In this document: positions 801 to 4,115 of the stretch, in pieces | Numbering within the stretch: position 1 is the stretch's first letter | Layout: each line of letters opens with the position of its first letter | Made by a program: the position numbers and the translations under genes | Source of the DNA: an uncultured Lachnospiraceae bacterium | Lineage (GTDB): Bacteria; Bacillota; Clostridia; Lachnospirales; Lachnospiraceae | Reading direction: 5' to 3' | DNA length: 37,843 nucleotides | NCBI GenBank assembly: GCA_947174705.1 | Contig: CAMWKB010000010.1 | Coordinates: 1 to 37,843 of the forward strand | Notes under the pieces: generated by a model | The model's input: the letters and a program-made list of their open reading frames with translations, nothing else | The model's database searches: none | Told to the model about the DNA's origin: nothing

Positions 801-998
801 ATGAAACTATCTGAAAAAATATAGATACTAAAAAAAGAATTACTCACAAGAAGAATTGGCCGCTATCTGTAATGTGAGCCGACAATCTATTTCTAATTAG
901 GCGGCTAATATTCACTTCTGGAAATAGAAAGTTTGTAATGAATGCAGAGAATTTCAGATGCCGATATAAATTGGAGCGAATAAATCAAGAAGAATTTT
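801..998 (+). pseudogene. Decayed XRE-family (HTH_3) transcriptional regulator
   Basis: The ATG at 801 opens MKLSEKI, then an in-frame TAG replaces the usual Gln/Arg codon, followed by ILKK. A shift of frame then gives NYSQEELAAICNVSRQSISN, the classic helix-turn-helix of XRE regulators (compare MKLSEKIQKLRKEN-YSQEELAEKLNVSRQAISKWE, known for the family). The expected Trp after SISN is a TAG stop. A further frame carries AANIHFWK, again stopped. A short tail ending RINQEEF-stop at about 997 may be its end. At least three inactivating lesions are visible, so no product is expected. It sits next to the acetyltransferase/MATE operon and may once have regulated it; that link is inference. Confidence 0.75.
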
Positions 999-1000
999 AA

Positions 1001-1029
1001 TGAACACACAATAGAAATATAACTATAAT
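1001..1029 (+). promoter_or_regulatory. Promoter of the acetyltransferase-MATE operon
   Basis: TGAACA (1001-1006) and TATAAT (1024-1029) are separated by exactly 17 bases. A start near 1036 would give a leader of about 108 bases that contains the short leader ORF and the attenuator stem. Confidence 0.5.
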
Positions 1030-1078
1030 TATGTTATTATATTAACGCCATAAATTAAAAGTTAAGAGGTGGTATACA

Positions 1079-1126
1079 GTGAAACGCTGCATTGTAGTGA
1101 CTGATATAGTCAAACAAATTTATTAA
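1079..1126 (+). CDS. 15-residue leader peptide of a translational attenuator
   Basis: A GTG start at 1079 follows AAGAGGTGG (1064-1072) at 6-base spacing and encodes [15 protein letters not shown], then TAA at 1124. Short leader ORFs in this position control drug-inducible resistance genes (ermC, ermA, cat) through ribosome stalling. Codons 8-12 of this leader form the left arm of a perfect stem with the downstream start-codon region. Residues 4-7 (CIVV) resemble the IAVV stall motif of ErmA-type leaders. A ribosome with codon 7 in its P site would cover roughly up to base 1112, exactly the left arm. Translation and stalling are inferred from the layout; the inducing drug is unknown. Confidence 0.65.
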
Positions 1127-1156
1127 ATTTCGGAGGTTTAAAAATGACTATATCAG
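1101..1156 (+). promoter_or_regulatory. Start-codon-sequestering stem (attenuator)
   Basis: CTGATATAGTCA (1101-1112) is the perfect reverse complement of TGACTATATCAG (1145-1156). The right arm includes the UG of the acetyltransferase ATG (1144-1146) and its first codons, and the 32-base loop carries the ribosome binding site (CGGAGG, 1131-1136). A smaller competing hairpin exists inside the left arm, TGACT (1098-1102) with AGTCA (1108-1112). This is the geometry of translational attenuation. Confidence 0.7.
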
Positions 1157-1773
1157 AAAATAAAATATATCCCCGTACAGGAGATACACAAACTATATAT
1201 CTTAAAAACGTAATTACAAATCCCAATATTACTGTAGGCGATTATACAATGTATAACGATTTCGTAAATGACCCAAGGGATTTTCAAAAAAATAATGTGT
1301 TGTATCATTATCCAATCAATCATGACAGGCTCATTATTGGTAAATTTTGTTCTATAGCTTGTGGTGCGAAATTCATTTTTACAAGTGCCAATCATACGCT
1401 GAGATCTCTTTCAACTTATCCGTTTCCACTGTTTTTTGAGGAATGGGGGTTGGACAAAGCAGATGTTGCAGATTCGTGGGACAACAAAGGTGATATTGTT
1501 GTTGGCAACGATGTGTGGATTGGATATGAAGCTGTCATTATGTCAGGCGTTACCATCGGTGACGGAGCCATCATTGGCACACGTGCGGTAGTGACAAAGG
1601 ATATTCCACCCTATACCATTGTCGGCGGTGTACCTGCAAAACCGATAAGAAAGCGGTTTGCTGATGATATTGTTGCTTCATTGCTTGATATAAAATGGTG
1701 GGAATGGGAAACTGAAAAAATCAAAAGAAATATTTCTGAAATTCAAAATGGCTATATTAATGAGTTATGCTAA
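1144..1773 (+). CDS. Vat/CatB-type xenobiotic O-acetyltransferase
   Basis: A 209-residue left-handed beta-helix (hexapeptide repeat) acetyltransferase of the XAT class, which transfers acetyl from acetyl-CoA to a drug hydroxyl (streptogramin A for Vat proteins, chloramphenicol for CatB types). Seen in the sequence: YHYP, then [12 protein letters not shown], the [13 protein letters not shown] segment whose His is the catalytic base in the family, then [12 protein letters not shown] and hexapeptide turns, and the WWEWETEKI tail typical of Vat/CatB proteins. Its length equals that of the family. CGGAGG lies 7 bases before the ATG, but the start is sequestered by the leader stem. The MATE gene follows 18 bases after the stop, so the two form a likely drug-resistance operon. 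The exact substrate cannot be told from sequence. Confidence 0.88.
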
Positions 1774-1791: not shown

Positions 1792-3153
1792 ATGAAACTA
1801 TACGATAAAACACAGATAGACCAGAAAAATCTTTTATTTGACAATAAGACGCTATTTTGGCTGATTTTACCAATCGTTATAGAGCAGCTTTTAAACTCCC
1901 TGATGGGACTGGTTGACACTATGATGGTAACTTCAGTTGGAAGCGAGGCAATAGCTGCGGTATCGCTTGTAGATTCAATCAATAATCTTGTCATACAGAT
2001 TTTTTCGGCAATGGCAGCTGGTGCGGCAATCGTCTGTTCACAGTATATCGGAAGCGGGAACAAAAAGGAAAGCTGCAGGGCTGCGGAACAGGTCGTACTT
2101 ACGGTACTCGTAATTTCGCTCTCAATCACGGCATTTTGTATTTTAGGCGGAGAGAGGCTCTTGCAGCTGATATTCGGAACGGTTGAAGACTCCGTAATGG
2201 AAAACGCTTTAATTTATTTTATGATAACGGTTATTTCCTATCCGTTTTTGGGGTTATTCAGCGCGGGTGCGGCTTTTTACAGGGCGTCAGGCAACTCAAA
2301 GTTCCCGACAAAGGTATCCGTTATTTCAAATGTCATAAACGTTACTGGTAACGCATTGTTTATATATGGTTTCAAGTGGGGCGTAGCAGGAGCTGCTTTT
2401 GCTACGCTCTTAGCAAGAGTATTCAGTACAGTCGTCATTTACTACTGCCTAAGAAAGCCAAAACAGACAATCATAGTAAGGGACTATTTAAGAATCCGCC
2501 CCGATATAACGCTCATATTGGCAATAATGGCAATAGGCGTTCCGGCAGGAATTGAAAACGGTATGTTCCAGTTTGGAAAGCTTGCTGTTCAGTCTACGGT
2601 TTCAACACTGGGAACTATAGCAATATCTGCACAGGCAATGACAGATATTTTCGAACTGGTAAACGGTATTTTTAGTAATAGTGTAGGTATCGGACTTATG
2701 ACAGTGGTAGGTCAGTGCATCGGTGCGCGCCGGACAGAGGAAGCAAAGTATTATTTCGTAAAATTAATGGGCGTCGCAGGGATAGGCGTATTGGTATCAT
2801 GTCTTTTAGTGCTTGCAATTACAAAACCGGTAACATTGCTTAGCGGCATGGAACCTGAGGCTGCAGAAATGTGTTTTAAGATGGTTACGGCAATGACAAT
2901 TGTAAAACCGTTTATATGGGTAGGCGCATTTGGTCTGCCATATGGCTTTAGGGCGGCAGGTGACGTTAAATTTTCTATGATAGTTTCCGTCTGCAGCATG
3001 TGGGTATGCCGCGTAGGACTTTGCATCTTCTTAGTGAGAGGGCTTCATTTTGGACTTATGGGAGTATGGCTTGGAATATTTGTTGACTGGATTGTCAGGG
3101 CGTCTATCTTGTCAATGCGGTTTTTGAGTGGGAAGTGGCTTCATAAAGTTTAA
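1792..3153 (+). CDS. MATE family multidrug/Na+ antiporter
   Basis: A 453-residue polytopic membrane protein of the MATE superfamily, normally about 12 transmembrane helices in two inverted halves, which exports cationic drugs or metabolites using Na+ or H+. It begins with the family pattern LFWLILPIVIEQLLNSLMGLVDTMMV and QYIGSGNKKES, and the second half repeats it (GIGLMTVVGQCIGARRTEEA). Length is normal and no lesion is seen. GGAG lies 9 bases before the ATG. It follows the acetyltransferase by 18 bases without a terminator, so it should share that gene's leader-dependent transcript, and combined modification plus export of one drug class is a reasonable inference. Confidence 0.9.
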   Translation: MKLYDKTQIDQKNLLFDNKTLFWLILPIVIEQLLNSLMGLVDTMMVTSVGSEAIAAVSLVDSINNLVIQIFSAMAAGAAIVCSQYIGSGNKKESCRAAEQVVLTVLVISLSITAFCILGGERLLQLIFGTVEDSVMENALIYFMITVISYPFLGLFSAGAAFYRASGNSKFPTKVSVISNVINVTGNALFIYGFKWGVAGAAFATLLARVFSTVVIYYCLRKPKQTIIVRDYLRIRPDITLILAIMAIGVPAGIENGMFQFGKLAVQSTVSTLGTIAISAQAMTDIFELVNGIFSNSVGIGLMTVVGQCIGARRTEEAKYYFVKLMGVAGIGVLVSCLLVLAITKPVTLLSGMEPEAAEMCFKMVTAMTIVKPFIWVGAFGLPYGFRAAGDVKFSMIVSVCSMWVCRVGLCIFLVRGLHFGLMGVWLGIFVDWIVRASILSMRFLSGKWLHKV

Positions 3154-3380: not shown

Positions 3381-4115
3381 ATGGACATCAAAGAGAAAAA
3401 ACGAGCAATAACACAAGAGGAAATTATGAGTCTTCTTGATGCTTGTTATGAGAAATGCTTAAACGGTATACCAAAAGTCAGTCCGAGTGTTGAAGATATG
3501 GCCAATGACTATTTAAAAAAATATAAATCGACAGAAGATGCCTGTAAAGCAATGTTGCGAAACCAAATTGTTAAATGCACAACATCTGGTGTGGTGACAG
3601 GATTCGGAGGTTTTATTACCATGCCTGTTGCAATTCCAGCAAATATTTCTAGTGTAATTTACGTGCAAATGCGTATGATTGCCTGTGTTGCATATATTGC
3701 AGGTTATGAATTGAACAGCGATCAGACACAAACTTTTGTTTACGCATGTCTAGCGGGTGTAGCAGTCAATGGCTTATTAAAACAAGCTGGTATAAAATTT
3801 GGTGTTAAATTTGCAAATGGACTTATTAAAAAAATCCCAGGCAAGGTATTGACCAAAATAAATCAAAAGGTGGGATTTAGATTCATTACCAAATTTGGCA
3901 CAAAAGGAATTGTCAATTTGGGAAAACTTCTTCCGGGTGTAGGGGCTATCGTAGGTGGTGGTCTAGATTTAGCAGAAACCAAGGTGATCGCCGACCGTGC
4001 TTATAAATGGTTTTTAAAAGGTGATTTTTCTATCAAAGGGGAGCCAGAGCAAGAGCCAATAGACATTGATTATATAGATTTTGAAAATGTAACAGAAACC
4101 TATGAAGATCAATAA
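3381..4115 (+). CDS. EcsC family protein
   Basis: A 244-residue protein resembling the EcsC family: a central segment FGGFITMPVAIPANISSVIYVQMRMIACVAYIAGY with two hydrophobic helices, then KIPGKVLTKINQKVGFRFITKFGTKGIVNLGKLLPGVGAIVGGGLD, a Gly-rich amphipathic/hydrophobic region, and an acidic C-terminal tail. EcsC-domain proteins are found in many Firmicutes and often in phage-defence or mobile settings, but their biochemistry is not established. In Bacillus EcsC is linked to the EcsAB ABC transporter, which is absent here. It has its own extended -10 promoter and is monocistronic, converging on galT. AAAGGA lies upstream of the ATG at a somewhat long distance. Function unknown; the family call is fairly firm. 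Confidence 0.8.
   Translation: MDIKEKKRAITQEEIMSLLDACYEKCLNGIPKVSPSVEDMANDYLKKYKSTEDACKAMLRNQIVKCTTSGVVTGFGGFITMPVAIPANISSVIYVQMRMIACVAYIAGYELNSDQTQTFVYACLAGVAVNGLLKQAGIKFGVKFANGLIKKIPGKVLTKINQKVGFRFITKFGTKGIVNLGKLLPGVGAIVGGGLDLAETKVIADRAYKWFLKGDFSIKGEPEQEPIDIDYIDFENVTETYEDQ

Follow-up and report, generated by a model that had tools for sequence, protein, structure and literature searches.

Each of the resistance genes erm(A), erm(C), and cat86 lies behind a short leader ORF, the 3' part of which base-pairs with the site where translation of that gene begins; arrest of a ribosome on the leader opens this site. Acetyltransferases of the group to which Vat belongs act on streptogramin A and phenicols, and to our knowledge they do not act on macrolides. 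IAVV is the motif named for the L1 leader of erm(A) (PMC12698558, available part). On the MsrDL leader (MYLIFM), the ribosome stalls when residue 6 occupies the P site, whether the A site holds a stop or a seventh codon that has been added (PMC10314930, available part); MsrDL responds to cladinose macrolides and steers the terminator of an ABC-F gene. The uORFs of CplR, VmlR, VmlR2, and LsaA encode MR[I/M], MIN, MK[L/Q], and MAGN, and arrest on them governs genes directed against pleuromutilins, lincosamides, and streptogramin A (PMC10201436 and PMC9226507, available parts). These uORFs are 3-4 residues long, and short uORFs for this drug group are thought to need little sequence context (PMC10201436, available part); CplR and VmlR also use a terminator.

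The locus described here resembles each of these systems in part. As in erm(A), erm(C), and cat86, the 3' part of a leader ORF pairs with a resistance-gene start; unlike in them, there is a single stem, which hides the start codon and the codons next to it and leaves the Shine-Dalgarno sequence in its loop (except in locus L215), the peptide is different, and the regulated gene encodes a vat-like acetyltransferase. The arrest that we infer would, as in MsrDL, follow six residues and be indifferent to a stop or sense codon at position 7, but the two peptides are unrelated in sequence and no terminator was found here. Compared with the uORFs of CplR and its kin, six residues are conserved instead of three or four, and the gene whose start codon would be acted on encodes an enzyme and not an ABC-F protein. 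The enzyme is homologous to the products of vat(A), vat(D), and vat(E) and shares their ANH-motif histidine. None of the titles and abstract openings of the open-access matches listed describes an attenuator ahead of a vat-type acetyltransferase gene; the words vat, acetyltransferase, and streptogramin are absent from the uORF4u paper; and MKRCIV, MKRCIA, MKLCIA, and MKLCIV had no match in open-access papers. A comparison with Rfam returned no described family, with one chance-level match (E 0.83) outside the leader.

We propose, at a probability of about 80%, that this locus is a translational attenuator induced by an antibiotic that acts at the peptidyl-transferase center (PTC), where gene kinship and natural variants of the leader are the grounds for the drug dependence and for the predicted stall site.

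A leader ORF and a start-hiding stem precede the vat-like gene

The window, by which we mean the whole 37,843-nt stretch of DNA that was analyzed, belongs to an assembly of 2.79 Mb that is 84.5% complete. A preliminary description of the window had proposed a leader ORF with its own ribosome binding site and a perfect 12-base complementarity between leader codons 8-12 and the acetyltransferase start, with the Shine-Dalgarno sequence in the loop, and both features are borne out by the sequence, its translation, and its folds (Table 1). The two arms form 12 of 12 Watson-Crick pairs, and 17 nt separate the leader stop codon from the vat-like ATG. The minimum free energy (MFE) of region 1058-1175 is -24.8 kcal/mol compared to -15.2 (sd 2.8) for shuffled sequences (z = -3.48; 0 of 200 equally low). 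To measure pairing at a gene start, we took the highest complementarity that the start region has with the 59 nt lying 16 to 75 nt before the start. This score is 28 in the window compared to a maximum of 26 for 512 other ORF starts preceded by a Shine-Dalgarno sequence (window and loci L062-L180). The pairing threshold (score 21 and 9 bp) was reached by 9 of these 512 unrelated starts and by 77 of 81 vat starts at the same loci, for which the selecting pattern overlaps the left arm. The arrangement of leader and stem is neither a product of chance nor restricted to the window.

Table 1. Features of the leader and vat-like locus (positions in the window)
Feature	Positions	Strand	Remarks
Promoter-like TGAACA-17-TATAAT	1001-1029	+	5' of leader; consensus scan only, not evidence of function
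Promoter-like TAGAAA-17-TATTAT	1012-1040	+	5' of leader; consensus scan only, not evidence of function
Leader Shine-Dalgarno-like GAGGTGG	1066-1072	+	6 nt 5' of GTG; from sequence
Leader ORF	1079-1126	+	15 codons, GTG start, TAA stop; reads V(M) + 14 residues; from translation
Leader codons 6-7	1094-1099	+	would occupy the P and A sites at arrest, as proposed from leaders with a codon-7 stop and frameshifted L208
Left arm of stem (leader codons 8-12)	1101-1112	+	sequence, fold, covariation
Shine-Dalgarno GGAGG of vat-like gene	1132-1136	+	in stem loop; from sequence
Right arm of stem	1145-1156	+	from the second base of the ATG through base 1 of codon 5; sequence, fold, covariation
vat-like hexapeptide acetyltransferase (xenobiotic acetyltransferase group)	1144-1773	+	His84 in ANH motif
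MATE efflux protein	1792-3153	+	18 nt 3' of vat-like gene

The consensus scan found 6 promoter-like sites on the two strands of region 850-1200, where 1.9 were expected. There was no terminator-like site on the + strand of this region, and none of the 93 aligned relatives described below has a T-rich tract after the right arm, which led us to reject transcription attenuation of the msrD or vmlR type. Farther 5' of the leader, a remnant of a helix-turn-helix regulator gene with internal stops is visible by eye at 801-900 (+).

The enzyme belongs to a sister clade of Vat

The enzyme contains hexapeptide repeats and the ANH-motif histidine, as expected for the Vat/xenobiotic acetyltransferase fold group. 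This histidine, which we take to be the catalytic residue in VatD, is conserved in 81 of 81 homologues encoded behind a leader, 36 of 37 leaderless homologues, and 7 of 7 Vat references. These 125 proteins were placed in a quick tree, in which the 118 leader and leaderless proteins stand opposite the 7 references across a branch with an SH-aLRT of 100, and a long branch separates this clade from VatA, VatD, and VatE. The score against the Vat model NCBIfam NF000311 is 242.4 bits, under the cut-off of 300, and the closest solved structures are VatD (1khr, 176 bits) and VatA (174 bits), with the best CatB-type structure at 158 bits. As judged from these scores and the tree, the enzyme is a member of a sister clade of known Vat, and the earlier label "Vat-like" holds in that sense but not in the sense of Vat proper.

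Of the 103 leader loci with at least 1,500 nt of downstream DNA among the matches listed (some genomes are counted twice), a single one has a MATE homologue 3' of the vat-like gene, and that one locus is the window itself. The MATE gene may share a transcript with the vat-like gene in the window, but on this count we dropped it as part of a conserved switch unit, and the regulated acetyltransferase-MATE operon of the preliminary description is not sustained. Two other genes lie in this part of the window: a Mrr_cat-type restriction endonuclease gene (2-511, - strand; Pfam PF04471, weak PADLOC match to LmuA) is cut by the contig end, and an EcsC-family protein gene (3381-4115, + strand) matches the candidate defense model PDC-S29 at 249 bits.

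The leader and the pairing occur together in homologues

Protein searches found a match at E 1e-60 in 37 of 299 genomes of the family and a match at E 1e-70 in 31 of 392 genomes of the order; the two genome sets overlap, and both include the genome of the window. The resulting protein-found set, which adds ten further stretches and four plasmid or phage records, comprises 70 loci, all of which were scored. A leader was recognized as a start codon, any two codons, and C-I-[A/V] within 130 nt, and was present in 30 of the 70 loci. Pairing reached the threshold in 29 of the 30 leader loci compared to 1 of the 40 leaderless loci (L015; Fisher p = 2e-17). A search of homologous upstream regions had been suggested as a check on the preliminary description, and its outcome is that leader and pairing co-occur, even though the leader is absent from 40 of 70 loci and hence dispensable for a vat-like gene. 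Four of the 40 leaderless loci are plasmid or phage records, one vat(E).

The sole leader locus under the pairing threshold is L215, where the partner of the same leader region is ACCATTCGGA, a stretch that takes in some of the Shine-Dalgarno sequence, and the fold agrees. The target of pairing can therefore shift from the start codon to the Shine-Dalgarno sequence with the leader retained. When ten leader regions were folded singly, the stem was present in every MFE structure (over the Shine-Dalgarno sequence in L215), and it was absent in three leaderless regions; whole-region z-scores were weak in some relatives (L208, -0.82; L195, -0.66). The known vat genes differ from this locus in that all eight annotated Vat loci (L226, VatD; L227, VatA; L211 and L229, VatE; L228; L223-L225) contain no leader pattern within 130 nt and no matching arm; L211 belongs both to these eight and to the 70 protein-found loci. 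The vat(E) gene of L211 (~1430-1515) starts with ATGACTATACCT, which resembles the right arm of leader-bearing vat-like genes and is perhaps its relic; a TTGACA...TATAAT-like promoter lies nearby, as seen by eye, and there is no leader. We also considered a second type of leader in leaderless relatives, but the motif 5' of L013, L018, and L021 reads better by eye as a promoter.

Covariation supports sequestration of the start

Leader loci from the protein-found set and from the DNA-pattern scan described below were pooled (126, that is 30 + 96, minus L030, L135, L138, and L177, which have odd spacing or a misplaced start) and thinned at 0.93 similarity to 93 rows, 25 protein-found and 68 pattern-found. 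The 12-pair stem is formed in 93.9% of the cells of this alignment, where the search pattern constrains several bases of the left arm and none of the right arm, compared to 22.5-42.9% with a slid partner. Changes on both sides occur in 9 of the 12 pairs, and the number of double-changed cells is 101 compared to 35.9 (sd 7.9) in shuffled alignments, none of 500 being as high. RNAalifold returned the identical stem and no other. The 25 protein-found rows alone behave similarly: 91.9% of cells are paired (21.9-44.8% with a slid partner), 7 pairs are double-changed, and 23 double-changed cells compare to 7.2 (sd 2.0) in shuffles (0 of 500). The weakest measure of covariation is the count of further pair types, for which 2 of 500 shuffles were as high in the 93 rows and 33 of 500 in the 25 rows. 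The innermost three pairs are weaker, being unpaired in 14, 15, and 35 of the 93 rows, as would be expected if about nine pairs suffice. Paired changes alter leader and enzyme together; in L217, leader Ile10 is changed to Thr along with a change of Ile to Val in the vat-like protein.

Sequestration of the start by the leader is thus strongly supported by covariation, and the attenuator geometry that had been proposed from the window alone proves to be conserved among relatives.

Selection on a six-residue peptide is well supported

As the best supported RNA feature of the locus, the stem might by itself act as a repressive or thermal hairpin or as a translational coupler in which the peptide sequence is irrelevant, and coupling would be feasible in L005 and L046, whose leaders continue beyond the vat start in a different frame. 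We consider this explanation very doubtful, because codons 2-6 lie outside the stem and the synonymous sites of codons 2, 3, 4, and 6 vary much, while the encoded peptide is conserved as MK[R/L]CI[A/V]. Among the 30 protein-found leaders, residue 2 is K in 27 (AAA in 18, AAG in 9) and R in 3; residue 3 is R in 21, by way of six codons, and L in 6; C4 is present in all 30 (TGC in 23, TGT in 7), as is I5, with ATT as its only codon; residue 6 is V in 15 and A in 15; and residue 7 is hydrophobic in 25, Q in 1, S in 1, and a stop in 3. The invariance of C4, I5, and A/V6 is partly by construction, since these residues are set by the search pattern (68 rows) and by the rule for leader recognition. 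However, codons 2 and 3, which that rule leaves free among the protein-found loci, still encode K/R while changing at synonymous sites. Selection on the six-residue leader peptide is therefore well supported by the pattern of codon change. A loose Shine-Dalgarno motif precedes the leader in 92 of the 93 relatives and the vat-like gene in all 93.

Conservation of Cys4 in 30 of 30 protein-found leaders, though set by the recognition rule, could also point to a leader that senses an amino-acid shortage or a metabolite instead of a drug. Yet there is one Cys codon only and no run of a single residue, the downstream gene is related to genes for drug-modifying enzymes, and several resistance-gene uORFs for the same drug group respond to the drug (PMC10201436 and PMC9226507, available parts); this reading is highly improbable.

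The residues that follow are under different constraints. Codon 7 encodes V, L, I, M, or F in 70 of the 93 leaders, with A, S, N, K, E, and G also seen, and is a stop in 4 (L032, L187, L189, and L103). L187 and L189 are sisters in the tree, and L032 lies elsewhere. L103 is outside the tree, but its Enterococcus relative L105 is included and also lies elsewhere; these positions imply at least three separate codon-7-stop events. Stops at codons 8-11 occur in 0 of 93 leaders; the pattern forbids them in pattern-found rows but not in protein-found rows. The remaining leaders stop at codon 12 or later, or beyond the 50 codons read (1 row). In L208, an extra base after codon 7 changes the C-terminal residues and leaves the left arm intact. 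Because the codon-7 stops and the L208 frameshift retain the arm, arrest probably needs codons 1-6 only, with residues 1-6 as the sensed peptide, and by the same comparisons leader codons 8-12 are held by RNA pairing. The codon-7 stops could instead reflect decay of the leader, although genes and arms look intact there.

These variants bear on two further explanations. In the first, arrest comes later, with codon 7 or 8 in the P site, on an ErmAL1-like IAVV chain that senses a macrolide or ketolide. CIVVTD in the window and CIAVSG in relatives resemble the IAVV of erm(A) L1 (PMC12698558, available part), and a ribosome on codon 7, with its mostly hydrophobic residues, would cover the entire left arm. 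However, residue 7 is free and four leaders finish after codon 6, residue 8 is accounted for by pairing, and the enzyme group works on streptogramin A and phenicols and is not known to work on macrolides. We therefore think this explanation rather unlikely. The likeness of CIVV to IAVV, raised in the preliminary description, reduces to I5-[A/V]6, and the pause with codon 7 in the P site that it favored gives way to one in which codon 6 is at least as likely, given the natural six-codon leaders. In the second explanation, the leader senses a phenicol or oxazolidinone, and the ribosome arrests at codon 9 in the P site, so that T, S, or A at position 8 is the penultimate residue. One of these three residues stands at position 8 in 91 of 93 leaders, where the pattern limits codon 8 in 68 rows, and these drugs favor a penultimate Ala, then Ser or Thr (PMC8987054, available part). 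But bases 2 and 3 of codon 8 form the outermost two pairs of the stem, which accounts for its NCY form, and leaders with a codon-7 stop never translate codon 8. This makes a phenicol or oxazolidinone sensor quite unlikely.

Proposed mechanism of the switch

Three features of an attenuator of the erm and cat type are present here: a leader ORF with its own Shine-Dalgarno sequence, a start-hiding stem with one arm in the leader, and a peptide under selection. In the resting mRNA, leader codons 8-12 would be paired with the beginning of the vat-like gene, from its start codon through the three codons that follow, with its Shine-Dalgarno sequence in the loop and the start closed, a structure backed by covariation. 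A ribosome on the leader would make M-K-[R/L]-C-I-[A/V], at which point the drug and the short nascent chain would together stop it. Codon 6 would then occupy the P site, and codon 7, whether sense or stop, the A site. That a PTC drug arrests the ribosome at codon 6 is our best inference from gene kinship and natural variants, and the kinship of the enzyme would make a group A streptogramin the most likely inducer. With P-site base 1094 and a distance of 15-16 nt, the edge of the arrested ribosome would fall near 1109-1110, which would keep 9-10 of the 12 pairs from forming; for an initiation complex, the stated toeprint distance is 16 nt (PMC9226507, available part). A ribosome with codon 6 (1094-1096) in the P site would cover 9-10 of the 12 left-arm bases, and one at codon 7 would cover all 12. 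The opened start would let a second ribosome begin the acetyltransferase, and removal of the drug by the enzyme would close the switch.

A broader proposal, which we put forward tentatively as somewhat short of probable, is that MK[R/L]CI[A/V] represents a new and ancient family of arrest peptides, sequence-specific for a group A streptogramin or another PTC drug, which would block elongation and termination alike after six residues and would have been inherited with the whole vat-like clade across Clostridia, with the leader and enzyme coding sequences coevolving base by base through the stem.

The leader is found across many families, mostly ahead of vat-like genes

A DNA-pattern scan of one genome per species (84,980 species) yielded at least 119 stretches, and a viral scan yielded 2. 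A vat-like ORF follows the leader in 91 of 121 pattern matches listed. The other 30 comprise 8 at the end of a stretch, 8 vat remnants or orphan leaders (L088, L091, L102, L123, L135, L139, L147, and L082), and 14 probable chance matches, three of which (L136, L156, and L169) were judged from the match table alone. The vat start is still visible in five stretch-end matches (L075, L079, L125, L126, and L146), and L077, L114, and L127 stop before it, L114 and L127 as judged from the match table alone. In L088, L123, L139, L147, and L082, the leader is retained and the vat-like gene has decayed, been replaced, or gone. Leader and stem ahead of another kind of gene were not recognized among the inspected matches listed, genes beside remnants aside. 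In a scan at family level, 17 of 28 matches lie 5' of vat-like genes, and the reversed-pattern control gave 4 matches.

Hosts of the leader among the matches listed are Lachnospiraceae, Oscillospiraceae, Clostridiaceae, Eubacteriaceae, Peptostreptococcaceae, Enterococcus, Desulfosporosinus, and one Treponema MAG. The last (L176) is the only non-Bacillota locus with leader and vat-like gene among these matches and could reflect transfer or mis-binning. Two Enterococcus loci, L103 from E. malodoratus and L105 from E. raffinosus, lack an ATG, GTG, or TTG in the vat-like frame near the Shine-Dalgarno sequence, and an AUU (ATT CCA) 8-9 nt 3' of it looks to be the sole start; leader and stem are retained (L105 was folded).

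Leader presence across the tree

Leader presence is spread over the whole vat-like clade and requires at least 12 changes on the quick tree, in which 46 of 122 inner branches are open; well-supported branches force only one leader change. The simplest reading of this distribution would be an ancestral leader that was lost many times, for example in a Bacteroides plasmid, a Phocaeicola plasmid, and phage copies (L209, L210, L212). The occurrence of the leader in commensals of many families and not on clinical plasmids suggests that resistance of the streptogramin type, in inducible form, is of long standing in the gut and regulated there. The naturally occurring set of six-codon, frameshifted, and Shine-Dalgarno-hiding variants and dozens of compensated stems provides ready test pieces for arrest of a six-residue chain by PTC drugs. 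On the Bacteroides fragilis plasmid (L209, 2561-3636), the vat-like gene has no leader but shares 4 bases with an overlapping GNAT acetyltransferase gene, an overlap that could couple translation of the vat-like gene in place of a leader.
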